64,000 bases of DNA, from positions 310,001 to 374,000 of the IMG/VR virus record IMGVR_UViG_3300032334_002567. One strand, 5' to 3'. A program made the position numbers and the translations under genes. Positions 17,137-36,680 of this stretch are shown in pieces. The notes beneath the pieces are model-generated. The model saw only the letters and a program-made list of their open reading frames with translations. It did no database searches and was not told the DNA's origin. Position 1 is the first letter of the stretch; the number at the start of each line of letters is the position of its first letter. The stretch comes from a virus.

Positions 17137-17916
17137 ATGAGATTCTCTAATTTTCTAATTTTATCAGAATACGCCCAAGGCATGTCAGACTTGGCGACAA
17201 GATACTTACAGGGCCAAATAAAGCCTGAAGATTTTGAGGCACTTACCAGAAGCAATTATGTCCAAAGAAATATGGATCTTTGGCGAAGCAATACTCAAGG
17301 CGGTTTTAGCCCAAGATTCCAACAATGGAAAGAGTGGTACAATAACATCAAACAACAATTAATTTCTAGTATGGAAAAAATTGGTTGGATTAATGATGAA
17401 AACCCCGGCTGGTTTCAGTTTAGTTTGCCAAAACAAAATCGGGATAAAATTGACGGCAAAACTTTTAAACTCTATTATTCTGTTGATGTGAAAGATTGTG
17501 CTAATTTTGTTCAAAATCTTCCAAGTTTAGCCAATAACTTAAGTCAAGTTAATACTCAAAACCAACTTTCCTTTAAGATCCCAAGCACTTATTCAACGTT
17601 CATGACCGAAAGAGATTCTCTTGTTGTTCATTTTTATGATAAACAAGCAAATCAAGAAATTAATCAAGCTGTTATTTCTTTCTTTCAAAATGCTGGGGTT
17701 ACTCCACAAGATAGAAGAAAAATTTACCAGACAACTGATCACGGTGTTGATCTTGACGGCAAGTCTGATACTCAATTAGTAGTTCAAAAATTTATGCAAT
17801 TTATAGACCACAACAAACAGTATTTGTTAGACTTACAAAAAAGAGATCCTTCTAAATTTACAAAAGATTTAGACCAATTGTGGCAGCATATATCGCAAAA
17901 AGGATATCATAGGTAA
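17137..17916 (+). CDS. Protein with T4-type capsid-targeting-like tag, possibly HopA1-like (259 aa)
   Basis: The N terminus MRFSNFLILSEYAQG fits the tag shared by several proteins here (Phe, aromatics, then LSE as possible prohead protease site). The central part, LSFKIPSTYSTF and TERDSLVVHFYD, resembles the conserved strand pair of the HopA1 effector family (FK-x-P ... R-x-DS-x-V-x-Y/F). That family includes type III effectors and lyase-like domains. The match is from remembered motifs only, so tentative. The combination suggests a protein packaged in the head and injected. Confidence 0.55.
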   Translation: MRFSNFLILSEYAQGMSDLATRYLQGQIKPEDFEALTRSNYVQRNMDLWRSNTQGGFSPRFQQWKEWYNNIKQQLISSMEKIGWINDENPGWFQFSLPKQNRDKIDGKTFKLYYSVDVKDCANFVQNLPSLANNLSQVNTQNQLSFKIPSTYSTFMTERDSLVVHFYDKQANQEINQAVISFFQNAGVTPQDRRKIYQTTDHGVDLDGKSDTQLVVQKFMQFIDHNKQYLLDLQKRDPSKFTKDLDQLWQHISQKGYHR

Positions 17917-17943
17917 ACTTAATTTACATGAATAACTACCTTT

Positions 17944-18336
17944 CTATTTGGTATTCCCTATTGTTATATGGTATTCGCTTCTTTGAATTCCTCCATAAAA
18001 TCTATCGTCACGATATTGGGGCAGACCTAGTTCCTGCCTTATATAGCCTATTTCACTGCTATAAGCATTTATCCAGAAATACATACCATCTGTTTGTATG
18101 ATGGGTTCATATTGGTATGTTATGATTCTGCCTTCGTGCTTCCTCCAAAACTCCATTTTTGTTGGAGTTTCTTTGTTCTTTCTTACAATTGTTATATGTG
18201 CAAGAGCTTTTTGGGGCTTTGCATAATAGTATCTTGGGATAAGACTTCTATAGTAGTCGCTTATACTTTGGTCTATGTTTGCAACTACTTGTATATTTTC
18301 ATCATATGCAACGATTGCCTTAGCTGTATACAACAT
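17944..18336 (-). CDS. 2H phosphoesterase-like protein (130 aa)
   Basis: Two H-x-T motifs, AHITI (H47, T49) and YHITI (H123, T125), spaced 76 residues apart in a 130-residue protein: the signature of 2H phosphoesterases, which act on cyclic or 2',3' phosphodiesters. Phage members include tRNA-repair-linked enzymes and anti-CBASS nucleases such as Acb1. I cannot tell which applies. It converges with the 17137 gene with 27 bases between. Confidence 0.7.
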   Translation of the reverse strand: MLYTAKAIVAYDENIQVVANIDQSISDYYRSLIPRYYYAKPQKALAHITIVRKNKETPTKMEFWRKHEGRIITYQYEPIIQTDGMYFWINAYSSEIGYIRQELGLPQYRDDRFYGGIQRSEYHITIGNTK

Positions 18337-18363
18337 TTCTATCTTTCAAATACGTATATACAA

Positions 18364-18379
18364 TAGCACAATAGTGCTA
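18364..18379 (+). promoter_or_regulatory. Short palindrome between divergent genes
   Basis: TAGCAC-AATA-GTGCTA (18364-18379), four bases before the AAGGAGG ribosome-binding site of the 18395 gene. It may be an operator or a small RNA hairpin. A TATACAAT upstream at about 18357 may be a -10. Confidence 0.35.
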
Positions 18380-18394
18380 ACAAGGAGGTTTATT

Positions 18395-18934
18395 GTGGGA
18401 GCTACAACAACAGAAGGAACTGGTCCGGGTTCTGTGGACAAAATTCTACCAACTATAAAGAATGGTAAAATCTATTTGTCTAATATTATAAACATAAAAA
18501 GTCTTCTTGAAGGAGTTCTCGTTCTTGAGGAATTTGAACCAAGTTTTTCACAATTGTCGGCACCTGTGGAAAATTATGTGGAAAAAGTTCAAAAAGAACA
18601 AGTGGAAAAGAAAATTCAAATTTCGCAAAGCTTTAAGCACAACATTAATGTCCACCATTCAGTTACTATAAAACCAGAAGCTGTTTTACCTTTGTCTTTA
18701 GATAAGAAGGAATCTTATAAGGTAGTTATATCCAAACAAACTAGATCAAAGAACAAAAATATGTTGAGCCATTCTAATAAAAAGCAAACCAAACAAAGAA
18801 GAAAAGTAATTTTAGAGCCTAGAAATAAAATTCAGAAAAAACAAAGAAAAAAAATAATTAGTTCTGAGGTTTTGTTAATTGGAAATAATCAGAAGGTAAT
18901 TATTTCAAAAAACAGTAGTATTTTTGATAAATAA
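18395..18934 (+). CDS. Lys-rich protein sharing its N terminus with the next gene (179 aa)
   Basis: GTG start after CAAGGAGGTTTATT, one of the strongest ribosome-binding sites here. The first 35 residues (GATTTEGTGPGSVDKILPTI...) are related to those of the 18973 product, then the two diverge: this one continues as a Lys-rich, probably disordered and basic C-terminal half (KKQTKQRRKVILEP). A shared N-terminal anchor with different cargo is likely. Probably a virion component, by the company it keeps. Confidence 0.65.
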   Translation: MGATTTEGTGPGSVDKILPTIKNGKIYLSNIINIKSLLEGVLVLEEFEPSFSQLSAPVENYVEKVQKEQVEKKIQISQSFKHNINVHHSVTIKPEAVLPLSLDKKESYKVVISKQTRSKNKNMLSHSNKKQTKQRRKVILEPRNKIQKKQRKKIISSEVLLIGNNQKVIISKNSSIFDK

Positions 18935-18972
18935 TTATGTAGGAGTTAGTCTTTAACCAAGGAGGTGTACAC

Positions 18973-19521
18973 ATGGCTGCAACTACAACAATGGGAACCG
19001 GTGTTGGTTCTGTGGATAATGTCTATAATAAATTAAAAAATGGTGTTGTTAATTCATCAAATGTTGTTAACAATTCTTTAAAGTCTGTTGACGTTTTACG
19101 TAAGCCACTTTTGGTAACAGCTGATACTTTAACTGTCACGGAAGATTATGCAGGTAGAGTTGTTTGTTTAGATAGGGCTGCTGGCGTTACTGTTACTTTA
19201 CCAGCCGCAACTGGAACTGGAAATGTTTACAAGTTTGTTGTTTCAACAACAGTAACAAGCAACAATGACGTAATCAAAGTTGCCAATGCTGTTGATTCAA
19301 TGGCAGGTCGTGCATTAGCTTGTGCTGATAGCGGCAACACTGTCAATGGTTGGGAAGTTGTATCCGGTGATGATACTATCACACTAAACGGTGGAACTAA
19401 AGGTGGATATGTTGGCGACACAATTGAAATTATTGATATCAAAGCCAATCTCTTTTTAGTTAATGCTTACCTAAATCAGACAGCCTCAGAAGCCACTCCA
19501 TTCAGTGCAACTGTTTCTTGA
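18973..19521 (+). CDS. Likely abundant structural protein (182 aa)
   Basis: CAAGGAGGTGTACAC is a near-ideal ribosome-binding site, and a strong terminator follows, as expected for a highly expressed gene. After the ATTTMGTGVGSVD start (shared with 18395) comes a beta-rich, Thr/Val/Gly-rich domain with TLPAATGTGNVYKFVVST, the pattern of phage decoration and fibre-head proteins that read AG-x-T-x-TLPAATG. Capsid decoration or fibre role is inferred. Confidence 0.65.
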   Translation: MAATTTMGTGVGSVDNVYNKLKNGVVNSSNVVNNSLKSVDVLRKPLLVTADTLTVTEDYAGRVVCLDRAAGVTVTLPAATGTGNVYKFVVSTTVTSNNDVIKVANAVDSMAGRALACADSGNTVNGWEVVSGDDTITLNGGTKGGYVGDTIEIIDIKANLFLVNAYLNQTASEATPFSATVS

Positions 19522-19546
19522 TTTTAAATAATATTTATTAAATGGT

Positions 19547-19584
19547 AGTGAGGGTAGGGTGAAAGCCTTACCCTCACTTTTTTT
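19547..19584 (+). terminator. Strong rho-independent terminator
   Basis: AGTGAGGGTAGGG (19547-19559) pairs with CCTTACCCTCACT (19566-19578), 13 bp with one G-T, loop TGAAAG, then TTTTTT. The most convincing terminator in the window. Confidence 0.95.
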
Positions 19585-19610
19585 GTATTGATACCTCATA
19601 AATAAAGATT

Positions 19611-19970
19611 ATGAGCAATAATTCTTTTAAATCGTGGTTGAAACTATCGGAAGATGGTGGAGGTGCCGGTGGTGGTGGAGGTGCCGGTGGTGGTGGAGGT
19701 GCCGGTGGTGGTGCCGGTGGTGGTGGAACTAGTGGTGGTGGAACTAGTGGTGGTGGAACTAGTGGTGGTGGAACTAGTGGTGGTGGAACTAGTGGTAGTG
19801 GAACTAGTGGTGGTGGAACTAGTGGTGGTGGAACTAGTGGTGGGCAAAATCCTCCCATGGGCAGTGGAACTGGCAAAGATAATATCGCCAAAGTTCCTAC
19901 ACGTTGGGGATGTTGTGGAATTTGGCCATATTGGAAAAAGAAAAGAAGAAAAAAGAAAAAAAGTGGATAA
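19611..19970 (+). CDS. Gly-rich repeat protein with basic tail (119 aa)
   Basis: Begins MSNNSFKSWLKLSEDGG, matching the head-tag pattern (SFKSW...LSE), followed by Gly/Ala repeats and eight GGGTS-type repeats encoded by a 15-bp DNA repeat. The C terminus has WGCCGIWPYW and an extreme Lys/Arg end (KKKRRKKKKSG). The stop overlaps the GTG start of MscL. There is no known relative that I can name. The DNA repeat makes length variation likely. Confidence 0.6.
   Translation: MSNNSFKSWLKLSEDGGGAGGGGGAGGGGGAGGGAGGGGTSGGGTSGGGTSGGGTSGGGTSGSGTSGGGTSGGGTSGGQNPPMGSGTGKDNIAKVPTRWGCCGIWPYWKKKRRKKKKSG
19719..19838 (+). repeat. Eight 15-bp tandem repeats inside the Gly-rich gene
   Basis: GGTGGTGGAACTAGT repeated eight times in frame (one unit has GGTAGTGG), preceded by related GGTGGAGGTGCC units from about 19659. 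The repeat leaves all three forward frames open, which creates a false Val-rich extension of the MscL frame. Confidence 0.95.
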
Positions 19971-20439
19971 TAAAGAGCTACTGCCTTCCATTCCTGATGA
20001 TCAAAAAAAGAAGGTATTCTCGTTAATAGAGGAATTTAAGAATTTTGCTTTTAAGGGCAACGTTGTTGATCTAGCTGTGGGTATGGTTATTGGGAGTTCT
20101 TTTAGTAATATAGTAAACAGTTTAGTCAACAACCTAATTACTCCGATAATAGGTATAGTTTTACCGGGTGATGTTGGACTTAAAGATTGGCAAATAGTTG
20201 TTGGCGAAAAACGAATACCTTTTGGTGCATTCTTTAATGATGTATTTGGATTCTTACTCACTGCGACTATTTTGTTCTTATTCTTGAAGAAGTTTTTAGT
20301 TTGGTTGTTGAAGTCTAGAAGAGAGGTGGACTTGAACAAACCTCCTCTAACTAAAGACCAAGAACTATTGCGTCAAAACAACGAAGTACTTAACCAAATA
20401 AAAGACATTTTATTGAGAAGTCAAAGTACCGGACTATAG
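19963..20439 (+). CDS. mscL: Large-conductance mechanosensitive channel MscL
   Basis: The start is GTG at 19963, overlapping the stop of the previous gene; upstream in-frame codons are only the Val-Glu reading of its DNA repeat. The 158-residue product has the diagnostic N-terminal helix FKNFAFKGNVVDLAVGMVIG, the first pore helix with SSFSNIVNSLVNNLITPIIG, a periplasmic loop, the second helix (FGFLLTATILFLFLKKFLVWLL) and a C-terminal charged helix. Bacterial MscL is a homopentameric emergency valve in the inner membrane. A phage copy could protect the infected cell from osmotic shock or help lysis or ejection. Confidence 0.9.
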   Translation: MDNKELLPSIPDDQKKKVFSLIEEFKNFAFKGNVVDLAVGMVIGSSFSNIVNSLVNNLITPIIGIVLPGDVGLKDWQIVVGEKRIPFGAFFNDVFGFLLTATILFLFLKKFLVWLLKSRREVDLNKPPLTKDQELLRQNNEVLNQIKDILLRSQSTGL

Positions 20440-21320
20440 ACTGCGGCGTGTTTGACAGCATAGTTAATTACATCTTTTTTAATTTGTCTGATTCTTTCTT
20501 TGGATACATCAAAGATTTTGCCAACATCTTGTAGAGTCATGCCCTCTTCTTGGTCTATTCCAAAGTAATACTTCAAAATAGTAATTTTGGCATCGGCATT
20601 TTTCATATTGCTCCTAATAATTTCAAATACTCTTTCAACAACTTCCCTGTTATGTTTATTTTTTAATTCCACAACAGCAAAATCTTCTTTTTGTTGTTGT
20701 AAGGTTTCTGGTTCTTCTATTCCTGTGAATCGTTCTTCTAGCTTCCTATAGTTTGAGTAATCTCTATGGAGGTTTCTCTTAAGAACATTTACATAATAGG
20801 TGGAAAATTTAAAGTTGAGTCTATAATCGAAGTATTCGATAGACTTTAACATATGCATGTATGCGTTTGAAAAGAATTCGTCTCTTTGTGGTCCATCTTG
20901 TTCAGCAAATTTACTTACTTGCTTGACGATTAATCTCATATTGGATTTAAGTAGAATGTTTCTTACTTCTTGTAGTTTGTTAATGGTATCCTCTATTTCT
21001 AAGAGGCTTTTCTCTCTAAGTCTTTCCAACTTCACGGGGGGAGATTGCTTAGGAGATTTGTTGTCTTTTGGTTTCTCAAATCCTGTGGTTAGTTTTTTAA
21101 GTCTATATTTCAAGTAATTGTATTTGCGAAAAAGGTGGTATTCTTGTTCTTTCTTCAACAGGGGAGAACAGTTTAGAATGTTGTTATGATCGACTTTGTC
21201 ATAGCAAAGATTAACATCTGCCAATAATGGCTTTCTGTTGTTGCCCTCAAAAGATTTCTCGAAGAAAAATCTATCAGGAATGCATGAAATAATCTTTTCA
21301 AGTCTTTCATTCTTGGTCAT
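20421..21320 (-). CDS. Sigma-70 family RNA polymerase sigma factor (299 aa)
   Basis: The start at 21320 has GGAG six bases upstream; an ATG four codons earlier has no usable spacing. Region 2 is visible (SNMRLIVKQVSKFAE... SIEYFDYRLNFKFSTYYV) near residues 125-185, and region 4.2 as GMTLQDVGKIFDVSKERIRQIKKD near residues 265-285. It likely redirects host polymerase to a phage promoter class. It converges with mscL with 19 bases overlap and has its own sigma70-like promoter. No region 1.1. Confidence 0.85.
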   Translation of the reverse strand: MTKNERLEKIISCIPDRFFFEKSFEGNNRKPLLADVNLCYDKVDHNNILNCSPLLKKEQEYHLFRKYNYLKYRLKKLTTGFEKPKDNKSPKQSPPVKLERLREKSLLEIEDTINKLQEVRNILLKSNMRLIVKQVSKFAEQDGPQRDEFFSNAYMHMLKSIEYFDYRLNFKFSTYYVNVLKRNLHRDYSNYRKLEERFTGIEEPETLQQQKEDFAVVELKNKHNREVVERVFEIIRSNMKNADAKITILKYYFGIDQEEGMTLQDVGKIFDVSKERIRQIKKDVINYAVKHAAVYSPVL

Positions 21321-21358
21321 GCTTATCTCCATCCTTGGTTTAAAGAAAGGGGATTTTG

Positions 21359-21386: not shown

Positions 21387-21408
21387 GTTTGAGTTTCTTT
21401 AAATTAGA

Positions 21409-22185: not shown

Positions 22186-22980
22186 TTAGATTACCATAGT
22201 AAGGCATTTACAAGCTCCACCGGCCTTTATAAATTCACTCATATTTGTTTCGTGAACTTTGTAGCCTCTGCTCTCTAGCAATTCCTTGGTACTACTGCAT
22301 CCTGCCGGTATAACAATATTGTTTTCAATAAGAACTGCATTACAGGCAAACTTTAATGCATCTTCTTGTGCGACTTCTAGCAATTCAAACTTACTTCTTA
22401 AGAAAGAAATTTTGTCATCATCAAAAGCCTTTGGATATATCAAAATTTGCTTGTTATTTAAAGGACAGAAGCATGTATCTAAATGATAAAAATAAGGATC
22501 TACAAGATTGAGCCTTATACACTTAACGTGGTAGTCTAACAAAGATTGCCAAATTTCATGGTCATATGCTTCTTCGTCACTTCTGAAGCCGTAACCCATA
22601 AAGATGTACCGATCTTTTATCAGACAATCTCCAGCTCCTTCAAACCTTAAATTTTCAGGAAGCTCAAAAGTTTTACAATTATTGCTCAAGAACCAATTTT
22701 TGTAAAGTTGCTTTTCTGGGATTCTTTCTTTATATTTAAAATTTGAAAGTAAAATGTTGTTTTCAATTAATATTCCTGCATTGGCTGTAAAGACTATGTC
22801 TGGAAGCTTGTCGGCAGGGGGCATTCTAAGGACATTAACGTTCAAAGATTCTAGGATTGAAATTAAGTTTTGCCATTGTTGATTGGCTAGTTCTTGGTTT
22901 ACCTTTTTTTCTAGGCTCATCCAAGGGTTAATTTCATAGTCAATTTGATAAAAAGATGGATCACAAGTAAGTATATTCAT
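22186..22980 (-). CDS. DDAH/amidinotransferase superfamily enzyme (264 aa)
   Basis: The order of motifs fits the guanidino-group-modifying superfamily (DDAH, arginine deiminase): DIVFTANAG at residues 61-69, FEGAGD at 113-118, YHLDTC with His166, and the C-terminal GGACKCLT with candidate nucleophile Cys259. Length matches DDAH. The likely reaction is hydrolysis or transfer of the amidino group of arginine or a methylated arginine; substrate unknown. Unusual in a phage; a role in host arginine metabolism, or in countering arginine-derived signals, is inference. Confidence 0.8.
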   Translation of the reverse strand: MNILTCDPSFYQIDYEINPWMSLEKKVNQELANQQWQNLISILESLNVNVLRMPPADKLPDIVFTANAGILIENNILLSNFKYKERIPEKQLYKNWFLSNNCKTFELPENLRFEGAGDCLIKDRYIFMGYGFRSDEEAYDHEIWQSLLDYHVKCIRLNLVDPYFYHLDTCFCPLNNKQILIYPKAFDDDKISFLRSKFELLEVAQEDALKFACNAVLIENNIVIPAGCSSTKELLESRGYKVHETNMSEFIKAGGACKCLTMVI

Positions 22981-23277: not shown

Positions 23278-23883
23278 ATGAGTTTTAAAGAGTATATATC
23301 CAGCAAAAAAGTACAACCTATGGAATTATTAGAATCCATAGAAATTAGTGATAATTTGAAGTATCACTTAGAGAATAATATTTCCTTATGTGAAAATGTA
23401 TTCAGAGTTTATAGTGAAGCATATTTTAGTTTGATAAGAGAGGTCAGAGAACTTTATAATAAGGATATGATAGCTATTAACGATGAAGATGCAGAGTTGC
23501 TAGAAACTGACTTGGGTGAATTTATAGAATTAAATGGAGAGGTCATTTATTTTGATGCACCAATGTTAGAAGAGAGTGAAATAAATGAAGCTGAGGTGGC
23601 GGGTAAAAAAGTAAAACTTAATAAACCAACTAGAACTCCTGGTGGGCCAAAGAAATTCAAAGTACACGTAAAAACTTCTAGTGGTAGGATTAAAACTGTG
23701 CGGTTTGGAGACTCAAAAGCTTCAGGACTAACAATTAAAAACTCAAATCCCGCAAGAGCAAGAAGCTTTAGAGCAAGACATAAATGTAGTGAAAAGAAAG
23801 ATAGAACGACACCGGGCTATTGGTCTTGCAATGTGGGCAGGTATGCCAAGGCTCTTGGATTATCTTCGTCTAGACCTTGGTAA
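23278..23883 (+). CDS. Tagged phage protein with RARHKC...PGYWSC C-terminal motif (201 aa)
   Basis: Starts MSFKEYISSKK, matching the head-tag pattern, with LLE at about residues 17-19 as possible cleavage site. The C-terminal 80 residues follow a pattern I know from many T4-like and cyanophage proteins: KFKVHVKTSSGRIKTVRFGD, then KNSNPARARSFRARHKC and PGYWSC. Function of that domain is unknown; it is usually linked to virion proteins. It is divergent from the 22995 gene. Confidence 0.7.
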   Translation: MSFKEYISSKKVQPMELLESIEISDNLKYHLENNISLCENVFRVYSEAYFSLIREVRELYNKDMIAINDEDAELLETDLGEFIELNGEVIYFDAPMLEESEINEAEVAGKKVKLNKPTRTPGGPKKFKVHVKTSSGRIKTVRFGDSKASGLTIKNSNPARARSFRARHKCSEKKDRTTPGYWSCNVGRYAKALGLSSSRPW

Positions 23884-23885: not shown

Positions 23886-24830
23886 TTATTGCCAAGTAGG
23901 CATTAATATCTGCTTCTTTATCTTTTCTTTGTCAGTTACTTTTTGTTTAGTTTCTTTGTCGTTTATCGGTATTTCTTGAACAAATAAACTTCCAAAAAGT
24001 AAGTCTCCTAACATGCTATTATCAGGTAATGCCTTATAATAAGGTTGCTGTCCTCCGCCTTTGTGGTTGAGAGCAAATGCTTTTAAAAACTGTGCTATTG
24101 ATACGTTTTCTTTATCTTTTAAAGCGTCGTATGTAGTCTTGAATCTTAAAGCAAAAACGCCTCTAGTAGATAGCATTTCAGCACTAGAAGAACTAATAAT
24201 TAATGCTTCTTCATACGCCCCACTATCCTCTCCGTAGTCTATAGATTCATCTTTTCTAATATCAAATATGCCTATGAAAGGAAAGATAATTCTATTGTTT
24301 TTACTTGGTAGCTCTGGGAGGAATGCGATCCCTTTCTCAATCTCTAGATTTCTTAACAATTCCCCATTCTCTTTAAATCCTTCTTGTATTCCACCTTGGG
24401 CATGACAAGTATCAATTAGCACTATCAACCTTTTAACTTTTTTGGATTTAGCTATCGATTCTAGTGCTTTGCTGAATTTAAAACTACCGCCTCTTGCTTG
24501 CATACCAAAATTATTTCTACTACCGCCTCCATGACCATTTAAATATAATAAAAGTGTAGATCTATCTGTTATTTTTTTTGATGTTTCTGTAATTGTTGAG
24601 TATATTTGCTGGGAAGAAACATTATGATGCCGTTCCGATTTAAAACCAAGTTTCTTATCTTTAAATACAGATTCCATTAAGTCTAAATTCTTTGTTCTTC
24701 CCCCTTCATCTGACATGGTGAAGAGCAGAGCTATGTTATTTTCAAGAGGATCGTACGCCATACCGGTTTCAACCTCTTGTCCATAACAAGTAGATGTAAA
24801 AAGTAACAACAGTATTAAAATATTTTTCAT
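23886..24830 (-). CDS. Secreted caspase-like (C14) protease (314 aa)
   Basis: A clear signal peptide (KNILILLLLFTSTCYGQ) is followed by a caspase-fold domain: LLYLNGHGGG with catalytic His100 and LIVLIDTCHAQGG with catalytic Cys142, preceded by the usual strand and helix order. Later SSSSAEMLSTRGVF fits the region after the large subunit. The start overlaps the previous stop as ATGA, so it is coupled to the 24827 gene. Such proteases are known in bacteria but hardly in phages. The target could be an envelope protein. The dyad is intact, so it is probably active. Confidence 0.85.
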   Translation of the reverse strand: MKNILILLLLFTSTCYGQEVETGMAYDPLENNIALLFTMSDEGGRTKNLDLMESVFKDKKLGFKSERHHNVSSQQIYSTITETSKKITDRSTLLLYLNGHGGGSRNNFGMQARGGSFKFSKALESIAKSKKVKRLIVLIDTCHAQGGIQEGFKENGELLRNLEIEKGIAFLPELPSKNNRIIFPFIGIFDIRKDESIDYGEDSGAYEEALIISSSSAEMLSTRGVFALRFKTTYDALKDKENVSIAQFLKAFALNHKGGGQQPYYKALPDNSMLGDLLFGSLFVQEIPINDKETKQKVTDKEKIKKQILMPTWQ

Positions 24831-25873
24831 ATTATTGGTGTTTGGAAGGATGGCCCCGAATATAAAGAGCCATTGTAGCCGGGAATTTGTTTTATTTTTT
24901 CTTCATATTTGTCTAGATGATTCATCGACTGTTTTTTATCTATCAATTCTTTTATATAGTTAAGATTATGTGTAACTATTTGAGGAAAATTAGTAGGTGA
25001 TTGCAGGTTCTCAAGCGGTATGTTTCTGCTTCTAATTATCCTAAAACTTCTTGGTCTGAATTTATTAACTGCGTTTAACTCTTCATGCAGAGTGTATAAA
25101 TCCACTAAAATATGCATATCTTCTGATATTGGATTTCTTTTAAATGTTATTTTTTCAACAACTGCGAGGTCTCTTCCGTTTATCACAAATTTTCCAATTA
25201 TATTTTGTTCGGGGAAAATTTTTCTAATTTTTAAGAGTTGTTTTCTTAGCTCTTGTTTCTCAAATCTAGCTTCTTCTATATCTTGCTTGTGATATTCTTT
25301 TCTTTGTTCGATGTATTCTTTTAAGTGGTCATTTTTTGCTAGTTTAAGTAATCTTTCAATAAAAGGTTTCCTTAAATACACTCTGGTGTTTGATATATGA
25401 CTTTTTTCTGGCTCATTCTGTACGATTTCCATATCGGTTAGTTTTGATATGAAAGTGTGGTATACTAGTAGCATATCTTTCTCATAAGGGGAAAAAGATA
25501 TGCCATCTACACGTTTGGTGTCAATCAATTTCTTAATACCAAACATAATTTTTTCATATATCGCATTAGATTGAGAGTTACTTCTTGTTGCACTGTAGGT
25601 GTTATCTTTTAAGAAGTCGATTTGATATATATTTTCTAAAATACTATTAGGATCTTCTATCCCACTATCCATCATTGCATCCTCAAGACCTCCAGCTATT
25701 GTGCTACCTTTTTGCATCTTTACAACATATTTTGATTTTGAAACATCATCTATGAATTCATATTCATATCCTTCTTTGTTTCCAAAATATGTAGGAATTA
25801 ACTCGATGTGACTAGTATCTGCGTTTACTAAATCTCTTATTTCAAAAATATAGAAAAATTCTTTAAAATTCAT
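24827..25873 (-). CDS. Tagged protein of unknown function (348 aa)
   Basis: I use ATG at 25873; the frame also has a TTG two codons earlier. The N terminus MNFKEFFYIFEIRD matches the head-tag pattern with IFE as possible cleavage site. The middle is mostly helical with many charged residues (RKEYHKQDIEEARFEKQELRK). It is translationally coupled to the caspase-like gene, which suggests they work together. A cyanophage-like structural ejection protein is possible. No domain recognised. Confidence 0.65.
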   Translation of the reverse strand: MNFKEFFYIFEIRDLVNADTSHIELIPTYFGNKEGYEYEFIDDVSKSKYVVKMQKGSTIAGGLEDAMMDSGIEDPNSILENIYQIDFLKDNTYSATRSNSQSNAIYEKIMFGIKKLIDTKRVDGISFSPYEKDMLLVYHTFISKLTDMEIVQNEPEKSHISNTRVYLRKPFIERLLKLAKNDHLKEYIEQRKEYHKQDIEEARFEKQELRKQLLKIRKIFPEQNIIGKFVINGRDLAVVEKITFKRNPISEDMHILVDLYTLHEELNAVNKFRPRSFRIIRSRNIPLENLQSPTNFPQIVTHNLNYIKELIDKKQSMNHLDKYEEKIKQIPGYNGSLYSGPSFQTPII

Positions 25874-25925
25874 ATACAAGCTTAAGCAAAGGTAATATGC
25901 TTATATAGAAATGTTTAAACTTATT

Positions 25926-26760: not shown

Positions 26761-27492
26761 ATGCGCTTGGCAATAATCACGCTTATGTTAACCTTTAATG
26801 TAGCTTGTGGTGGAACTATCGATCCTTCTACTCCTGATTCAAAATATGTGGAGTATGCCAAAGACTTCGAATGTATACTAAAAATATGTGGAAAAGATGA
26901 AAAAGATAGAAGTTACTGTGCTTCAGCAGTTGCTGTTGCCCCGCATTGGATCATGACCGCTGCTCATGTTGTGAAAGATGTGAAGTCAAGCTTTGTTGTA
27001 GTCAACCACAAAGTTTTTGAAGTAAAGAAAATAGTTTGCCATGATCAGTATGAAGAAAAAAACTATGGAACTTGTGATTTAGCTTTAGGCTATATTGAAG
27101 AAGATCTGGGGCTTAAGTTCTATCCAGAGATATATAAAAATCAGGATGAAGTAGGAAAGATTTGTTCTATTTCTGGTTACGGCATTACAGGTACCTTTAA
27201 TACGGGTGCAAAAAATAGTGACAACCAAAGACGAGCTGGATCTAATAAAGTCGAATCAATTGACAGAAAACTTCTAGTTTGCACTCCATCAAAAGAAAAT
27301 AGAACTTCTTTAGAATTTCTTATCGCACATGGCGATAGTGGAGGAGGCTTATTTATAGATGGAAAACTAGCGGGCATTAATTCTTGTGTAATGGCAACAG
27401 ACAAAAAGCCAGATTCAACTTATGGCGATGAGAGTGGTCACACAAGACTAAGTCTTTATAAGGATTGGATTAAAGAAGTCATGCAAAAATAA
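26761..27492 (+). CDS. Secreted trypsin-like serine protease, probable lipoprotein (243 aa)
   Basis: A signal sequence (MRLAIITLMLTFNVAC) ends in a lipobox-like cysteine at residue 16. The chymotrypsin-fold triad is complete: His69 in MTAAHVV, Asp106 in CDLAL, Ser193 in GDSGGG. Several extra cysteines could form disulfides in the periplasm. The product would sit in the envelope of the infected cell. Phage-encoded S1 proteases are rare; it lies about 2 kb from the caspase-like protease, so the two may act on the same envelope targets or on competing phages. Confidence 0.85.
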   Translation: MRLAIITLMLTFNVACGGTIDPSTPDSKYVEYAKDFECILKICGKDEKDRSYCASAVAVAPHWIMTAAHVVKDVKSSFVVVNHKVFEVKKIVCHDQYEEKNYGTCDLALGYIEEDLGLKFYPEIYKNQDEVGKICSISGYGITGTFNTGAKNSDNQRRAGSNKVESIDRKLLVCTPSKENRTSLEFLIAHGDSGGGLFIDGKLAGINSCVMATDKKPDSTYGDESGHTRLSLYKDWIKEVMQK

Positions 27493-27937: not shown

Positions 27938-28284
27938 TTTATTTCCCAAGAAGCGTTTGGTCTCCTCAAGTTTTCTTTCTTTAAAGATTTACTGCAAGCT
28001 TCGGTAACGCTTGCTACTGATTTTTTTGCTTGCGACAAAGTATCTGCACTCCCCATATAGAATAGTTCTTTTGCAGAATGCAAATTTTCACAAGAATAAG
28101 GCAAGTCTATTTCTTCTTTTACCAGACCTTCCTTATTGTAGGTTTGATCTATGATTTTTGGGACATGATAACACGTAAAACACATTCTTGGGTAAAGATT
28201 GCCATCAACATAGGGCTTTGTTTTGTGGACCGTGGTGTGTATGTCCATTTTTTGATTACACAAAGAGCAGACGTCTTTTTTCAT
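27934..28284 (-). CDS. Zinc-finger-like protein (116 aa)
   Basis: Two cysteine pairs, CSLCNQK near residue 6 and CFTCYH near residue 35, form a likely zinc site. The C-terminal half is helical (LSQAKKSVASVTEACSKSL). The start overlaps the patatin gene's stop as ATGA and its end overlaps the phosphoribosyltransferase start, so it is translationally coupled both ways. Confidence 0.7.
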   Translation of the reverse strand: MKKDVCSLCNQKMDIHTTVHKTKPYVDGNLYPRMCFTCYHVPKIIDQTYNKEGLVKEEIDLPYSCENLHSAKELFYMGSADTLSQAKKSVASVTEACSKSLKKENLRRPNASWEIK

Positions 28285-29105
28285 GGACCTTTAAGGAAAA
28301 GCCTTATTCCCTTTTTATCATGAATATAGTAATTGTTCCTACCATATTCTACCCCAACTTTGCAGCGATTGAAATACACACTGTCAAAAGCCAGATTATT
28401 TGGTTCAACAAGGTGTATGTTGACATTTTTAAATTTTGGATCATCTTCCTCCCTAATGCAGGAAAAAATATCTCTAATCATAATTTCATATAGACTGATA
28501 TCCAGTGCTCTAAATGCCATGTTTAGAGCTTTAAGAAAACCTTTTGGCTTTTCCCAAGGCTCTAAAAAAGCTGGTCTGCCCATTATCACATATATTTCGT
28601 CGCAACCAGCTTCTATACATTGTTCTAAAGGGGCCAATTGCCTACTCCCCGCATCTACCCAACCATTGCGATCTTGTACCAATCCAGTAATTGCCACGCT
28701 GCCTAGAATTGCTTCTTTAAATTCTTCTTTTGTACAATGTTTGTTTGAAACGTATTGAAGTTCACCTGTTTCTATGTTCATCCTACAAACGACGCTTTCA
28801 CATAAAGGTTCATTTTCTAATGATTTTTTTACAATTTTTTCCATTGGCTTCTGATTGAATATCCCAGTAGAAAAAAGAAAATTAATATTAGGTTGAAAAA
28901 CATCGAAAATATTTGAAATGTTTTTCCACATATTCGCCAAACCTTCTGGTCCTAAATACGCATAAGAAGCCGCACATATAGAACCAGAGGAAATCCCTAT
29001 AGTAAAATCTGCATTGATTCCCTTTTTAGATAGGTCTGCTGCAATGCCAGCTTGTACAGAACCTCTAGCTCCCTCCCCGGTAAAACAAAAACCTATTTTA
29101 GTCAT
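28281..29105 (-). CDS. Patatin-like phospholipase (274 aa)
   Basis: It has the three diagnostic parts: an oxyanion-hole motif GEGARG (residues 10-15), the nucleophile elbow GISSG with Ser39, and the dyad Asp in DAG (residues 151-153). Length is that of single-domain patatin-like acyl hydrolases, which cleave phospholipids. It lacks a signal peptide, so it would act from the cytoplasm on the inner membrane. A role in lysis or in membrane remodelling is inferred. Central gene of a four-gene minus-strand operon (29976 to 27494). Confidence 0.85.
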   Translation of the reverse strand: MTKIGFCFTGEGARGSVQAGIAADLSKKGINADFTIGISSGSICAASYAYLGPEGLANMWKNISNIFDVFQPNINFLFSTGIFNQKPMEKIVKKSLENEPLCESVVCRMNIETGELQYVSNKHCTKEEFKEAILGSVAITGLVQDRNGWVDAGSRQLAPLEQCIEAGCDEIYVIMGRPAFLEPWEKPKGFLKALNMAFRALDISLYEIMIRDIFSCIREEDDPKFKNVNIHLVEPNNLAFDSVYFNRCKVGVEYGRNNYYIHDKKGIRLFLKGP

Positions 29106-29994: not shown

Positions 29995-30381
29995 CTATTT
30001 AACTCTAAATTTGCTACATTTATTATTATCGTTGTCATCCGTTTGTGGGAAAAAATATGATTCATATATTCTATAAACTTCACTATAGGCTACCCCCCAA
30101 GAAGCATCATGAGACATTTTTTCAAAATCTTCCCAAGAAAGCTTATCGTGCAAGTGGTTCCAAGCTCTTGCATGTGCCCACTCATGAAGCACGGTATCCA
30201 TAGCAGCAGATTCTGTCATTTCTTTGTTTATCCTGATAAAGAACTTTTTTGAAGCCAGACTACAGTCGCCATCTAAATTATTCATAGGAACCCTTTTCAC
30301 GCTCACAGGATATGCCAAAGGACAGTTTTTTTTAAGTATAGACACTAATTTCCTATAATGCTTAAAGTTTTTTTGTTTCAT
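29995..30381 (-). CDS. HExxH zinc metallopeptidase-like protein (128 aa)
   Basis: ATG at 30381 has GGAGG three bases upstream; a longer frame lacks a site. The motif VLHEWAHAR (His66, Glu67, His70) is an HExxH zinc site, with Glu101 in SEVYRIYE as possible third ligand. Small single-domain proteins of this type are common in large phages. Substrate unknown. Confidence 0.75.
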   Translation of the reverse strand: MKQKNFKHYRKLVSILKKNCPLAYPVSVKRVPMNNLDGDCSLASKKFFIRINKEMTESAAMDTVLHEWAHARAWNHLHDKLSWEDFEKMSHDASWGVAYSEVYRIYESYFFPQTDDNDNNKCSKFRVK

Positions 30382-30476: not shown

Positions 30477-31949
30477 TTATTTCTTTAGTGAATCTATCCA
30501 TTTTTTTGTTGATAGATTTTGCTTAACATAGTCGAATTCTTTACCTTGCGGCGATCTGCCTAAAAGATCAGTATATGCTGGATTTATTGCTCTTTTTCCT
30601 TTTTCATCCGTTATATAAGGGGCTAAATCGCTTTCATCGTGGTCAATAAAACTATTAAATTCATCTTTATCTAGGTTGACCATCTTCATCCAATCCTTGA
30701 TTTTGGACTTTGTTAATCCACTATGAGCCTTTTTTATACTATAAAATTGATTTGAATCAAAATTGTTATTTTTACCCCAATTATAAAGTTTGACAAGATA
30801 TGCAATATCGTTAGCTTCTTGGCTAGTCCAACCATTCGATGTAAGAAGTTCTTTTACTTGATCTGGGGAATTATTCCTTAGAACCCAAGCGACACTCAAC
30901 CATCTGTCCCCTACAAAGTTTTCTGGCATTTCTTCTTCTGTTGAGAATTCCACACCAGGAAAAATTTGACTAAATATATCAAGTGAATGGGCCGTCTTCA
31001 TTAGTTTTCTAGGATCTACATCAGGATGCTCTAAAGTACTGATAAAATCTTTTTTCACTAATTCTTTTGGAAGACTGGCGATGCTCTTTGAATGGCTTTT
31101 TATTATCTTTGCATAATCCTTTGGCAGAGATTCTGGGTTGCCGTATCTTGCATTTGTTTTTAGAAGTCTTAGTGCAATTGCTGGGTCTTCTTTGAGTCTA
31201 TCTTCTAGTTTTTCTCCTACTACCTTTATTTGGCTGTTCTTTAGATGGGTAGCTCCACCATATGGATCTATTAGTTCACTATTATCGCCATCTGCGTTTG
31301 ATAATGGTATGTATAGAGAGTTTATAGTTAAGTCTCTATTTGACGAATCTTCTTCTATAGATGAAGCAGACTCAGCCTTATCAGGTTGTATTCTTCTGCT
31401 TTTTAGACTCTTTGACAAAGTTGCTATTTCAAACTCTTCACCATTTATTTCTACCGTTATCTCTAATTCTTTTCCCTGTTTATCCCACCTAGAAACATAG
31501 AAAGATTTCTTATTTGTAGATGTTGGTAGCTTTGCATATCTTTTTTCTTCAGGAAGATTTTTTGGTTTAACTTCTGAGAAACCTTCTTCGGATTGGTCTA
31601 ATATCATTCTTACTTCACTTATTGTAGCGTCTGTTACCAAGTCATAATTTCTTGGTGTCTTGCCTTTTAAGTGATCACGCACGGCACCACCGGTTAAATA
31701 CAAAGATTTTTTCTTTAACTGTGGCTCTATTTCGCCTTTTGATTTGTCGATAGTGGTATAGCCCAGTCCAACTTGGTTCGAGCCATTAAAAGCTTTTACA
31801 AGATATCTCAAATTAGCATGAGAGTTTTTATTGATGGCAAAAGGAGTAAACTCTTTGTCTCCTAGTTTCTTCTGAAGTTTAACCTTAGATGTAACTGATT
31901 CTGGCTCTTTGGCTTGCTCCCTGAACTGATAATACTTTGAGAATTTCAT
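30477..31949 (-). CDS. CCA-adding/poly(A) polymerase-type nucleotidyltransferase with head tag (490 aa)
   Basis: ATG at 31949 follows TTGGGGTAAAA. Class II head domain: LYLTGGAVRDHLKG (GGAVRD at residues 87-92), RNYDLVTDAT (101-109) and NRDLTINSLY; then a helical neck and body. The first Asp of the usual DxD is Asn101 here, so metal binding may be altered. The start MKFSKYYQFREQ matches the head-tag pattern of other proteins here. The tRNA-Leu at 565 lacks CCA, giving a possible substrate. Either a packaged tRNA-repair enzyme or an inactive relative. Confidence 0.75.
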   Translation of the reverse strand: MKFSKYYQFREQAKEPESVTSKVKLQKKLGDKEFTPFAINKNSHANLRYLVKAFNGSNQVGLGYTTIDKSKGEIEPQLKKKSLYLTGGAVRDHLKGKTPRNYDLVTDATISEVRMILDQSEEGFSEVKPKNLPEEKRYAKLPTSTNKKSFYVSRWDKQGKELEITVEINGEEFEIATLSKSLKSRRIQPDKAESASSIEEDSSNRDLTINSLYIPLSNADGDNSELIDPYGGATHLKNSQIKVVGEKLEDRLKEDPAIALRLLKTNARYGNPESLPKDYAKIIKSHSKSIASLPKELVKKDFISTLEHPDVDPRKLMKTAHSLDIFSQIFPGVEFSTEEEMPENFVGDRWLSVAWVLRNNSPDQVKELLTSNGWTSQEANDIAYLVKLYNWGKNNNFDSNQFYSIKKAHSGLTKSKIKDWMKMVNLDKDEFNSFIDHDESDLAPYITDEKGKRAINPAYTDLLGRSPQGKEFDYVKQNLSTKKWIDSLKK

Positions 31950-32003
31950 TTTTACCCCAATCATTATTTTAATAAAGTTATTTATGCCTTATTATAGTAT
32001 TTT

Positions 32004-32309: not shown

Positions 32310-32350
32310 TTTTTTCCATTTCTAAGTCCCTACATTCTATATATTAACAT

Positions 32351-32887: not shown

Positions 32888-34206
32888 TGTCTAAAATAGC
32901 AATTGATGAATGGTACAAAGAAGCCAGTGGTGATATAGCTGCAAATCAATCTTCTATGGGTACACCAGATGGCTCACCTATGGATGCTCCTAATGCCCAA
33001 CAAGCTCAACAACCAAGTGTAGGAGTACCACAAGACCAGCAAAATGCAAAACAAGGCACAGAGCAGAATCCAGATCAAGGATCACAACAGCCACAGATGC
33101 CAGATGTCTCACAGGATCCAGTAGCTCCTGATATGCCTGAGGAGAAACAGGATCAAAACTTTGAAGATTGGAAAAACAATTATTTCAGAGAATCAATCAA
33201 AGGCGATGTAAGTAAACTTATAGAAATGATTCAACAAGTCAGAGACACCGAACTAGACTCTTACCCCAGAAAATTTGTTGAAGACAATTTGCAAATTTGC
33301 TTTTTAAGACAACATGCCAACATTGAAAAAGCTAGCAAAGAAATAAGAAAACTAATTAGAGATAATCTCGATAGAAATAATCCAAGTGTTTCTTTAGTTA
33401 ATCACATCGATAGCACCTTGCAAACAATGCCAGAACTGAATAGTGTTTTTATAAAGCTTAAAGGACTTTTAGGTATGAAGGGCGATCTTCATAGAAAGTT
33501 TGTATCAGCTATTATAGGTGGTGTACAGGTTGGAACAGGTGGAAACAATGAAGATGTAATTTATAATGAAAGAGATTATTCTATAAGGCTTTCTACGAGA
33601 TATAACGATAAGTGGGGCAGAGTAGATATTGGAAAATGGAGTCTTAAAGAAGATGACACAGAAAGATACCTTACAGAACCTGAGCAAAGAAGATTAGAAG
33701 AAGGATCCCCAGAAGAAAAAGACGTCCTCAGAAGAAGAGTCGTTGTGGAGAGTATTTCTGACATCTTCAAGAAAAGAGGATTCGTTATAAATATTGTAGG
33801 AGAAGATGGCACCATTTATACTTTAGGCTGGGATATATCAGGTAGCCTAAAGAATGCCTATACTAGCGGCAAAATAATCGTAAAAACAATTCAAAGTGAA
33901 AACTCTGAGGCCATGATAGATGATGATGGAAAGATAACTCCTTATGTTGATGTAAAAATAAAATATACTAAAGAGACTGGGGAGGTTGACGAAGATGGAA
34001 AGCCAGTTCAAGAAGAACATGACTTCATGGAAAGAATAGATGGAATGCTTTTCTTGACAGCACAGTTTCAAATACTAAAAGAAGCTGCGTCTTCATTTAG
34101 TGGAATGGTTCTAAAAGAAATTCCATATAATGGAAACCCAAGTGACTTAAGAATAATACAAAGATGTGTTCCCTCGGCCCCAGAAATATTAATGCGTCAG
34201 TGCTAA
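32887..34206 (+). CDS. Structural or scaffold-like protein with disordered Gln/Pro-rich start (439 aa)
   Basis: Begins MSKIAIDEWYKEASGD (a weak version of the head tag), then residues 15-95 are Gln/Pro/Asp-rich and disordered. From residue 95 it is mostly helical (SKLIEMIQQVRDTELDS...) with a beta-rich part near 235-380. No recognised family. Coupled to the 32351 gene and followed by the 34215 gene eight bases later. Confidence 0.6.
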   Translation: MSKIAIDEWYKEASGDIAANQSSMGTPDGSPMDAPNAQQAQQPSVGVPQDQQNAKQGTEQNPDQGSQQPQMPDVSQDPVAPDMPEEKQDQNFEDWKNNYFRESIKGDVSKLIEMIQQVRDTELDSYPRKFVEDNLQICFLRQHANIEKASKEIRKLIRDNLDRNNPSVSLVNHIDSTLQTMPELNSVFIKLKGLLGMKGDLHRKFVSAIIGGVQVGTGGNNEDVIYNERDYSIRLSTRYNDKWGRVDIGKWSLKEDDTERYLTEPEQRRLEEGSPEEKDVLRRRVVVESISDIFKKRGFVINIVGEDGTIYTLGWDISGSLKNAYTSGKIIVKTIQSENSEAMIDDDGKITPYVDVKIKYTKETGEVDEDGKPVQEEHDFMERIDGMLFLTAQFQILKEAASSFSGMVLKEIPYNGNPSDLRIIQRCVPSAPEILMRQC

Positions 34207-34214
34207 GGAGAAAA

Positions 34215-34688
34215 ATGCAGAACTTTTTTGAATTTGTCGATAGAAAACAACGAGAGTCAAGAAAACACCTACAGCTTGTCGAAAAGGCTTTAAAAAAAGC
34301 TGGGATGAATGTAATCAATTTTATAGATCAAGATGATTCTTATGTGTTTGTTAAAAACAAACATCCTGATGCCCCTTTTGCTGGAGTTAGAATCTATGAA
34401 ATAGGAGACTCATTGGCCTACAGAGTACAAAAAGAGCCTGAGACTGAACCTTATGGTAAGGCCTATTTAATAGACCTAGAGGAAATGTTCAATGACTTTA
34501 TGGGGGAAGGAATGAAAGAAGAAAAAGCTGGCGAAAAAGTCGTTGATAGCTTAGTTTTAGAAATAAACAAGTTCTTTGAGAAAAGTGCGAAAGCCCAAAC
34601 AGAAGTAGAGAACACACCAGTTGGACTTCCTGCAATTCTAAAGACGGGTGGAACTGATTACTCTGGCTTGGTTACAAGTAAAATGTAA
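34215..34688 (+). CDS. Protein of unknown function (157 aa)
   Basis: TAAGGAGAAAA precedes the ATG; an in-frame start at 34164 would overlap the previous gene. Begins MQNFFEFVDRKQRESRKHL, resembling the head-tag pattern. A helical domain is followed by a beta part (DDSYVFVKNKHPDAPFAGVRIYE) and a helical end. The stop overlaps nothing; the next start is one base on. Confidence 0.6.
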   Translation: MQNFFEFVDRKQRESRKHLQLVEKALKKAGMNVINFIDQDDSYVFVKNKHPDAPFAGVRIYEIGDSLAYRVQKEPETEPYGKAYLIDLEEMFNDFMGEGMKEEKAGEKVVDSLVLEINKFFEKSAKAQTEVENTPVGLPAILKTGGTDYSGLVTSKM

Positions 34689-34689
34689 A

Positions 34690-35385
34690 ATGGATGACGC
34701 CATAATAATCAGCGATATCCACCTAGGCAGCGAAGTTAGTCAGTCAAAAAAGCTGATTAAATTTTTTGAAGAAATTGAAAGTGGATCTCGTCTTGTAAAA
34801 TCCTTGATCATTAATGGAGATCTTTTTGACAGCTGGGATTTTCGAAAGCTTAAGAAGAGCCATTGGAAAGTTTTATCACATATAAGAAAACTTTCTAAAA
34901 TTTTGCATATAGTCTACGTTAATGGGAATCACGATGGACCTGCAGAAATTATATCTCATCTTTTAGGAGTTGAGTTTTTAGAAGAATATATTTTTGAAAG
35001 CGGTGGTAAAAAAATACTAGTTCTGCATGGTGATAAATTTGACAAATTTATAGCCGATTATCCGATACTAACCAGATTGGCAGACAATATTTATAGGCTT
35101 ATACAAAAAATAGATAAAAGTTTTTATCTTGCAAAAATGGCAAAAAAGAACAGTAAAACATTTCTCAGGTGCTCAGAATTAATTAAAGAAAAAGCAAAAA
35201 AATACGGAGAGCAAAAAAAAGTTAATATGGTTTGTTGTTCACACACACACTTGGGCATGGAAGATAATGAGGGAAAGGTAGGATATTACAACTCAGGCTG
35301 TTGGACAGAAGAACCTTGTACCTTTCTGACCATTAAAGATGGGATTATAAAGCTCAACAGTTTTGTTCAAAAAGAGCATATATAA
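34690..35385 (+). CDS. Metallophosphoesterase (UDP-diacylglucosamine hydrolase LpxH-like) (231 aa)
   Basis: The calcineurin-fold motifs occur in order: ISDIHLG (residues 7-13), NGDLFDSW near 47, GNHD near 82, LHGD near 118 and CSHTH near 193. Two metals would bind Asp8, His10, Asp49, Asn83, His119, His194 and His196. Length and motif spacing are close to LpxH-type UDP-diacylglucosamine hydrolases, but a phage enzyme of this fold may act on other phosphodiesters. It begins one base after the previous stop. Confidence 0.8.
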   Translation: MDDAIIISDIHLGSEVSQSKKLIKFFEEIESGSRLVKSLIINGDLFDSWDFRKLKKSHWKVLSHIRKLSKILHIVYVNGNHDGPAEIISHLLGVEFLEEYIFESGGKKILVLHGDKFDKFIADYPILTRLADNIYRLIQKIDKSFYLAKMAKKNSKTFLRCSELIKEKAKKYGEQKKVNMVCCSHTHLGMEDNEGKVGYYNSGCWTEEPCTFLTIKDGIIKLNSFVQKEHI

Positions 35386-35417
35386 TATAGACGATTAACC
35401 GTTTAACAAGGAGGTTT

Positions 35418-35597
35418 ATGGAAAATAAAGACATAAGTTTGTTGGCTCTTTTGTTAGCCATTTTTATACCACCCGTAGGTGTTCTTATAAAAGAAGGACT
35501 AGGAGTACAGTTTCTAATTAACTTAATTTTAACCTTTTTAGGATATATACCTGGCATAGTCCATGCCTTGTACATAATACTAAGAGAAAAACAATGA
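35418..35597 (+). CDS. Pmp3/YqaE-family small membrane protein (59 aa)
   Basis: ACAAGGAGGTTT precedes the ATG. Two membrane helices with the family pattern LLALLLAIFIPPVGVLIKEG then INLILTFLGYIPGIVHALYI. YqaE/Pmp3 proteins affect membrane potential and stress tolerance in bacteria and yeast. The stop overlaps the next start as ATGA. A phage copy is unusual. Confidence 0.8.
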   Translation: MENKDISLLALLLAIFIPPVGVLIKEGLGVQFLINLILTFLGYIPGIVHALYIILREKQ

Positions 35598-35914
35598 AAT
35601 TAAAATCTTTTGAAAGTTGGCTTACAGCAAGAGGTGTTGAGCCTCTTGCTGTACAAGCTAAAAAAATTAGCGAAGCCTCTAATGACGGTAATGAGATGCT
35701 AAAAAACAATCTCAATGACATTATAGAATACGCTACTAAACTTTCTAGCGTTGTTGAGTCCACATCAGAATTAGACGAGTGGATGGAGAATAAAATAACA
35801 GTTGCTAGAACTTATTTATCTGACGTTACTCATGCTTACCTAAACGATCTAAAGAACCAAAGTCCTTGTGGTGGGATGTTAGGTCAAGCTAGCGAATTCG
35901 GTCCAACCCCGTGA
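35594..35914 (+). CDS. Small helical protein, possibly head-tagged (106 aa)
   Basis: Begins MKLKSFESWLTARGVEPL, matching the SFxSWL version of the tag seen at 19611. The remainder is helical with a Cys-Gly pair near the C terminus (SPCGGMLGQASEFGPTP). The start overlaps the Pmp3-like gene's stop. Confidence 0.6.
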   Translation: MKLKSFESWLTARGVEPLAVQAKKISEASNDGNEMLKNNLNDIIEYATKLSSVVESTSELDEWMENKITVARTYLSDVTHAYLNDLKNQSPCGGMLGQASEFGPTP

Positions 35915-35924
35915 AAAATATAGC

Positions 35925-36680
35925 CTATGCAGGGGCAAAACTTGAAGCAGCTTCTGGTGTCGATGGATTCTTGCCCATGATTTTCATTACTTCTTTCTTC
36001 TTCATAACTTGATCGTACTTATCTGGAAATACTTTTGCAATAGTAGCTTGAATTTGGGCTTTTGCTTTGCTGCTTACTCTTGGGCTTAGATAGGCTCCGA
36101 CCAAGCTGTGAAACAACTTTTCTCTCTCTAGTGCTTTTTCATCCTGTTGCTGGGTCTGCTTGGCTTGAGCTTTAACAGCTTTGGGAGCCTGAACTTTAGA
36201 GACTTGTTTTTGGGGCTGTTCTTCATCCTCTCCAGAATTTAAACCAAATATATTTTGCCAAGGTTTATTTTGCTTTCCACCGGGACTATAAACTCCGGTG
36301 ATATCAAAGGGACTTTCACCAGCCGCCTGAACACCTCTTATTGCCGCTGTTAAAGGTGATGCACCAATTTGCAGGGCTCCTGTACCTATTTGCTTTCCTG
36401 CATTCTGGCCTAGCTGCCATCCTCTCCTGATTTTTTCTCTGCCCTTCTTTTTTCCTCCACCTATAATTTCAAGAGCACCAGCACCCATTTGTCCTAAACC
36501 ATAAGCACTTCTAGCCGTTCCTCCTAGAATGTTGCCTCCACCCCTTGCAATTTGTGTTCCTAAATTTGAGGCTGCACCTGCAAGACCTGTGAGGATGCCT
36601 TCTTTTACAAGCCTATCATGCTCGGCTTGAATCCATTGCTCAAAAATTTCTTGTTCTAATACGTATTCTTTAAATTCCAT
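35925..36680 (-). CDS. Head-tagged Gly-rich protein (251 aa)
   Basis: Begins MEFKEYVLEQEIFEQW, with VLE or LEQE as possible cleavage site, then a Gly/Ala-rich amphipathic part (GILTGLAGAASNLGTQIARG...) like membrane-active or ejection proteins, a Gln/Ala/Lys linker, and a helical C-terminal domain. AAGG precedes the ATG. Together with its tag this looks like an injected internal protein, by inference. Confidence 0.65.
   Translation of the reverse strand: MEFKEYVLEQEIFEQWIQAEHDRLVKEGILTGLAGAASNLGTQIARGGGNILGGTARSAYGLGQMGAGALEIIGGGKKKGREKIRRGWQLGQNAGKQIGTGALQIGASPLTAAIRGVQAAGESPFDITGVYSPGGKQNKPWQNIFGLNSGEDEEQPQKQVSKVQAPKAVKAQAKQTQQQDEKALEREKLFHSLVGAYLSPRVSSKAKAQIQATIAKVFPDKYDQVMKKKEVMKIMGKNPSTPEAASSFAPA

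Follow-up and report, generated by a model that had tools for sequence, protein, structure and literature searches.

A short N-terminal tag, similar to the T4 capsid-targeting sequence, shared by dozens of unrelated proteins of a huge phage and its relatives

Eight genes in a 64,000-nucleotide stretch of virus DNA (IMG/VR record IMGVR_UViG_3300032334_002567, positions 310001-374000 of 381,443 bases; hereafter the window) encode otherwise dissimilar proteins that begin with a shared short tag, which recurs at the N-termini of proteins across the record. The tag is a module of 9-14 residues, defined from the sequences of this phage and two relatives, with the core F-x-x-[FWY]-[LIVM], often followed by [LIVM]-x-E. 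Its likeness to the leader of the T4 internal proteins suggests that it is probably a T4-type capsid-targeting sequence employed on a far larger scale, whose bearers would be imported into the prohead, cut and ejected with the DNA. The large terminase of the record, a member of the T4 superfamily, shares 49% identity with its counterpart in the uncultured 595-kb phage LR756511. Both this phage and G001, a 511-kb relative reached via a baseplate protein, were included in the comparison, and both are rich in tags. Baseplate genes are also present inside the window. Some 71% of the record was examined stretch by stretch, and the remainder by pattern search alone.

Distribution of the tag

All eight N-termini listed in the initial annotation of the window were found in the sequence, and the whole-genome search that it proposed located the tag throughout the record, well beyond the 17-37 kb region of the window. 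A loose pattern (M.{1,7}F..[FWY][LIVMFY]) matched 35 of the 343 first-ATG N-termini of the record, compared with 23 of 1432 internal methionines (p=2.7e-12), while a stricter pattern, which leaves the glutamate out, matched 28/370 N-termini and 9/963 internal methionines (p=1.1e-9). The stricter pattern gave 19/183 versus 5/568 in G001 and 8/102 versus 6/333 in LR756511, and was without enrichment in four T4-superfamily phages, namely Atu_ph07, Rhizobium phage I1_18, Microcystis phage Mel-JY01 and Flavobacterium phage immuto. Moreover, a profile trained solely on 27 tags of G001 (threshold >=8 bits) recognized 30 of 370 N-termini in the present genome against 3 of 984 internal methionines (p=1.2e-14), a background from which about one of the 30 matches is expected to be false. 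Offsets 0, 3 and 4 of the matches are nearly always aromatic, aromatic and L, I, V or M, partly by construction of the profile. At the DNA level, the tryptophan form of the tag (ATGN{3,12}TTYNNNNNNTGGNTN) occurred 71 times in the whole record and 69 times in G001, against 33 and 17 occurrences of the reversed control, respectively.

Two matches were set aside as untagged. The PrkA kinase at record position 115004 (MSFSEYIELLKEKP) was judged a false positive, because an ATG lies upstream and bacterial PrkA has a similar native sequence; its PrkA family matches are thus to be disregarded. The SprT-like protein at window 29998-30381 (MKQKNFKHYRKL) was rejected since its orthologues are without the pattern.

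A portable module on unrelated proteins

After removal of the first 20 residues, the 72 tagged proteins of the three phages fell into 62 homology clusters, so that the tag is not explained by shared ancestry, in agreement with its initial description as a tag on unrelated proteins. Where homologues could be aligned, the tag is a portable add-on placed ahead of complete domains. For instance, a P-loop kinase at record position 227417 begins with MNSFISWLENRDRK and continues directly into its nucleotide-binding domain, while the homologous kinases of Vibrio phage Javier and Aeromonas phage PAc begin at the domain, 12 residues later. Likewise, in the tRNA nucleotidyltransferase of the window and in its relatives, the tag is accompanied by a linker of ~70 residues; the enzymes of Atu_ph07 and the Rhizobium phage lack both. 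A second tagged tRNA nucleotidyltransferase is present in the same genome at record position 226185 (L009:1185-2417:+).

Orthologues preserve the amino acid classes of the tag but not its letters. The nucleotidyltransferase of the window, which had been pointed out as a tagged enzyme and is indeed one, has orthologues that are tagged too (FSKYYQFRE, FSDYLNIKE, FSNYIQLRE, FSKYIKLRE and FLEFMGLKE across the group), and the family of the gene at 34215 reads FFEFVDRK, FLEFVDRK, FLEFIDRK, FKEFIDKK and FHSFVDRK, the pattern being retained in related contigs down to ~38-40% identity.

Likeness to the T4 capsid-targeting sequence

In the T4 internal protein IPIII (MKTYQEFIAE), residues 4 (Y4) and 7 (F7) are required for targeting, and residues 8 (I8) and 10 (E10) for processing (PMC9026906). 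The conserved positions of the tag form the same set, with an aromatic residue, a second aromatic residue three positions later and then an aliphatic one, and the resemblance to T4 that had first been noticed in the sequence holds well, as its spacing equals that of the positions mapped experimentally (PMC9026906). The T4-type cut site L/I-x-E, which had been anticipated along with it, also has its counterpart here: among tags selected with the glutamate-blind pattern, [LIVM]-x-E within residues 8-16 occurred in 15/28 tagged but 35/342 untagged proteins (p=1.2e-7). Candidate cut sites (a slash marks the cut) include IAE/S, LLE/D, LTE/E, LSE/V, IIE/A and ILE/A. In the window, seven of the eight tags have [LIVM]-x-E within 27 residues, and the eighth, that of the nucleotidyltransferase, reads FRE at the position occupied by IKE, LRE or LKE in its orthologues. 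Glutamate stands at +8 from the first aromatic residue in 16/35 proteins against a background of 6.7%, a partly circular figure, since this position carries weight in the profile.

Applied to 261 T4 open reading frames (ORFs), the G001 profile placed gp61.1 first and IPI third. T4 gp61.1 (NC_000866 18966-19130, minus strand) begins with MKTFKEFIKEDM and, like many small tagged proteins, is small with a Gly-rich middle and a Lys-rich end; it differs in being annotated as hypothetical. Its N-terminus is strongly tag-like, and gp61.1 may be an overlooked internal protein.

Cargo of the tagged proteins

With the first 12 residues removed, the tagged proteins of the present genome are more basic than the rest (median isoelectric point 8.5 versus 6.3, p=5.5e-5), and a charge difference was also found in LR756511 (p=0.01). 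The small tagged proteins often have a low-complexity middle followed by a Lys/Arg-rich, often poly-lysine, end; such tails were counted in 6/35 tagged versus 8/335 other proteins here, 3/30 versus 1/156 in G001 and 2/7 versus 2/94 in LR756511. As to families, three of 69 tagged proteins from the three phages match tRNA nucleotidyltransferases, while the following are each matched by one protein: PARP, NADAR, NUDIX, polynucleotide kinase, RNA ligase, the HAD of RNA-repair proteins, TnsA-like and HNH nucleases, and a phospholipase A2-like domain. A number of these matches are weak, and for the majority of tagged proteins there is none. For the nucleotidyltransferase, AlphaFold gave a predicted local distance difference test (pLDDT) score of <30 in the tag region, and the family of the gene at 24827 reached a pLDDT of 47; these models were too poor for a fold search.

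Not all of the cargo first proposed for the window was recovered. The possible HopA1-like effector is unsupported, as no HopA1 family was found among the Pfam and PHROG matches of the tagged window proteins. The suggestion of membrane-active tagged proteins is unsupported in the case of the channel MscL, which is a separate, untagged frame overlapping the tagged Gly-rich ORF that lies upstream of it. The MscL mechanosensitive channel itself (window 19996-20439, Pfam E 7.4e-30) is an unusual gene in a phage.

Head genes in the relatives and in this record

A T4-type portal gene occurs in both LR756511 and G001, together with genes for an S77-like prohead protease and a gp23-like capsid protein. 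In LR756511, tagged genes are located a short way downstream of the capsid gene. In the present record, the protease, portal and capsid genes were all unfound by every method tried. The record is most likely incomplete, probably a fragment, because its relatives are 130-214 kb longer and three essential head genes are jointly missing. A protein of 587 amino acids at record position 28923 was considered as the capsid protein and rejected, since the capsid query matched only a short internal stretch (residues 144-247).

Interpretation and alternatives

In the mechanism that we favor, the two aromatic residues of the tag would bind the prohead core (scaffold) during head building and draw the attached protein inside, an S77-type prohead protease would cut after [LIVM]-x-E to free the cargo, and the freed cargo would be ejected together with the DNA in the following infection. 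This reading is favored by the enrichment of the tag at true N-termini, its recurrence in three genomes, the T4-superfamily terminase and the head genes of the two relatives. Those small tagged proteins that have Gly/Pro-rich linkers and poly-Lys tails could, in the manner of the basic T4 internal proteins, bind or condense the DNA in the head. Larger enzymes, such as the tRNA nucleotidyltransferases and the polynucleotide-kinase-like, PARP-like and RNA-ligase-like proteins, might act at once on the new host, for example in RNA repair or counter-defence.

Several observations weigh against capsid targeting followed by cleavage. The enrichment of [LIVM]-x-E is weak in G001 (p=0.028), and the small sample of LR756511 does not show it; about a quarter of the tagged proteins here, and nearly half of those in G001, have no such site nearby; and the spacing between the aromatic pair and the glutamate varies, often exceeding that of T4 by 1-2 residues. 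For charge, G001 shows no significant difference. In addition, the G001 profile misses T4 IPII and IPIII, whose first aromatic residue is Tyr, and both were recovered by a regular expression that permits Tyr. The missing head genes of the present record belong on the same side.

Among the alternatives, tagged proteins might enter the virion uncut and stay there uninjected, with the tag acting as a permanent anchor to the scaffold or the inner capsid. The tags without a nearby cut site and the weak glutamate enrichment in two of the three genomes would fit such an anchor; however, the strong enrichment of the site in the present genome and the protease genes of the relatives argue against it, and enzymes such as nucleotidyltransferases are poorly suited as structural parts, so that we consider it unlikely. 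Still less probable is an address for another site in the cell, such as a phage-made compartment, a membrane or the replication complex. The tag is short and amphipathic-looking, and the protease gene was not found in this record, both of which would be compatible with another address; against it stand the coincidence of the conserved positions with the mapped T4 targeting residues, the protease-like sites that follow the tag and the T4-superfamily terminase. Moreover, nuclear import in nucleus-forming phages is independent of terminal signals (PMC13282480).

It is very improbable that the tag is a translation or mRNA control element at gene starts rather than a protein signal. In the present genome, Shine-Dalgarno-like sites are rarer before tagged genes (11/35 versus 144/261) and TAAATA is modestly commoner upstream of them (6/35 versus 8/261, p=0.003), which would fit such an element; yet these differences were not replicated in G001 (p=0.18 for TAAATA), for which reason a shared late promoter was also dropped. 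The codons of the tag are mixed (TTT/TTC, CTA/TTA, GAA/GAG), indicating selection on amino acids and not on DNA, and orthologues keep the amino acid classes. Finally, although a few tagged paralogues exist (three of the 24827 type and two nucleotidyltransferases), the view that the tagged genes are one expanded family with an ancestral N-terminus can scarcely be held, since the clustering and the unrelated Pfam families of the cargo refute a single common ancestor for most members.

With capsid targeting of the T4 type preferred, it is possible, though we hold this tentatively, that one portable N-terminal signal forms a general import code of huge T4-superfamily phages. Their virions might then deliver dozens of pre-made enzymes, including a kit for RNA and tRNA repair (kinase, ligase-like, HAD phosphatase-like and CCA-adding enzymes) and enzymes of nicotinamide adenine dinucleotide and ADP-ribose, active before phage gene expression.

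The eight tagged genes of the window

The eight tagged genes are listed in Table 1. Positions 24827, 30477 and 35925, at which three of the tags had first been placed, are the far ends of minus-strand genes.

Table 1. Tagged genes of the window; a slash marks the candidate cleavage position
Coordinates	Strand	Start	Length (amino acids)	Product	N-terminal tag and remarks
17137..17916	+	17137	259		MRFSNFLILSE (17137-17169); candidate cleavage LSE/Y after residue 11
19611..19970	+	19611	119		MSNNSFKSWLKLSE; candidate cleavage LSE/D after residue 14
23278..23883	+	23278	201		MSFKEYISSKKVQPMELLE/S; start codon ambiguous
24827..25873	-	25873	348		MNFKEFFYIFE/I
30477..31949	-	31949	490	tRNA nucleotidyltransferase (CCA-adding enzyme family, PolyA_pol)	MKFSKYYQFRE
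34215..34688	+	34215	157		MQNFFEFVDRK
35594..35914	+	35594	106		MKLKSFESWL...KKISE/A; candidate cleavage after residue 27
35925..36680	-	36680	251		MEFKEYVLEQE; Gly/Ala-rich middle

The gene at 17137 has no family match and is preceded, a short way upstream, by TAAATA. Behind its tag, the product of the gene at 19611 consists of Gly/Thr/Ser-rich repeats with a basic tail (KKKRRKKKKSG); the gene overlaps other frames within the repeat, and its coding status is less certain. The start of the gene at 23278 is ambiguous because of a longer upstream frame and an ATG at residue 15; its product, which has a weak DUF5754 match, is homologous to a Flavobacterium phage protein whose start corresponds to residue 15. 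In-frame upstream alternatives also exist for two minus-strand genes, namely a TTG at 25879 for the gene starting at 25873 and an ATG at 31964 for the gene starting at 31949, orthologues of which start at the position equivalent to 31949. The gene starting at 25873 has two tagged paralogues elsewhere in the genome, at record 32725 (plus strand) and 244481 (minus strand). The gene at 34215 lies beside two conserved untagged genes (32351 and 32887). A protein of 360 amino acids in L063, related to the product of the gene starting at 36680, is likewise tagged at its start (MNFTEWLEK).

Other features of the window

A caspase-like peptidase C14 with an apparent signal peptide (window 23886-24830, minus strand; Pfam E 6.7e-9) adjoins a tagged gene. 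Three other genes, all of them untagged, encode a trypsin-like protease with an apparent signal sequence (26761-27492), a patatin-like phospholipase (28281-29105, minus strand) and a protein resembling dimethylarginine dimethylaminohydrolase and arginine deiminase (22186-22980, minus strand). A protein of 130 amino acids (17944-18336, minus strand) has two H-x-T motifs spaced like those of 2H phosphoesterases, with no Pfam match at 0.001. A single ORF of 4404 amino acids occupies 38024-51238, also with no Pfam match, and Atu_ph07 has a similar-sized, 13.3-kb gene annotated as 'structural protein'. In addition, ~17 copies of an upstream cassette (TTGTACCCTA ... GTGTTCGAT ... CCCCAACGGAGA, often then ATG) precede small ORFs at 5268-12949; the cassette looks like a repeated promoter with a ribosome-binding leader, in a gene region unlike the rest.

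Comparison with known systems and significance

According to previous studies, T-even phages possess at least 10 internal proteins that share only their leader, three of which inhibit type IV restriction enzymes (PMC12373910), and the T4 internal proteins are basic and DNA-binding (PMC9026906). The tagged proteins resemble T-even IPI, IPII and IPIII in that a short N-terminal aromatic-x-x-aromatic-aliphatic core with x-x-E is set on otherwise unrelated proteins (PMC12373910, PMC9026906), that the cargo is often basic and that the lineage has T4-type head genes. Unlike T4, which has three, a single genome here has ~30 or more; the first aromatic residue is Phe or Trp rather than Tyr, the second is often Trp, the glutamate is often 1-2 residues further on, and the cargo includes enzymes. 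T4 Alt, a packaged ADP-ribosyltransferase, offers a possible parallel for a host-takeover enzyme carried in the head, as one tagged protein of G001 has a weak PARP-like match; however, the N-terminus of Alt (MELITELFDED) is off the pattern.

Beyond the T-even phages, the ejection proteins of phiKZ-like phages such as SPN3US are also numerous, head-borne and processed by a related protease (PMC5694885), but their propeptides are mostly far longer (several >100 residues) and share no short common tag. In the jumbo phage Atu_ph07, tandem paralogues carry a short repeated N-terminal motif, M[KR]WxQL[TN]E, which also ends in x-x-E; it is a different motif on one apparent paralogous family. These paralogues (L033 of Atu_ph07, 39484-49507; mostly ~250 amino acids) lie within a cluster (coding sequences 31-76) for which 29 virion proteins were detected by mass spectrometry, a figure that holds at the level of the cluster, and their motif is possibly a second kind of packaging tag. 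In the literature searched, we found no report of a tag such as ours on dozens of huge-phage proteins, although this absence is not proof.

For T4-like phages, the packaged proteins known in any one genome number no more than a handful. If one short signal marks ~30 or more proteins in a huge phage, it would become possible to predict from sequence which proteins of uncultured phages are packaged and probably injected. The tagged proteins, mostly without a known family, are candidates for counter-defence and takeover factors. If true, phages of 500-600 kb would also use T4-style cargo loading, and much protein could fit beside the DNA in their large heads.

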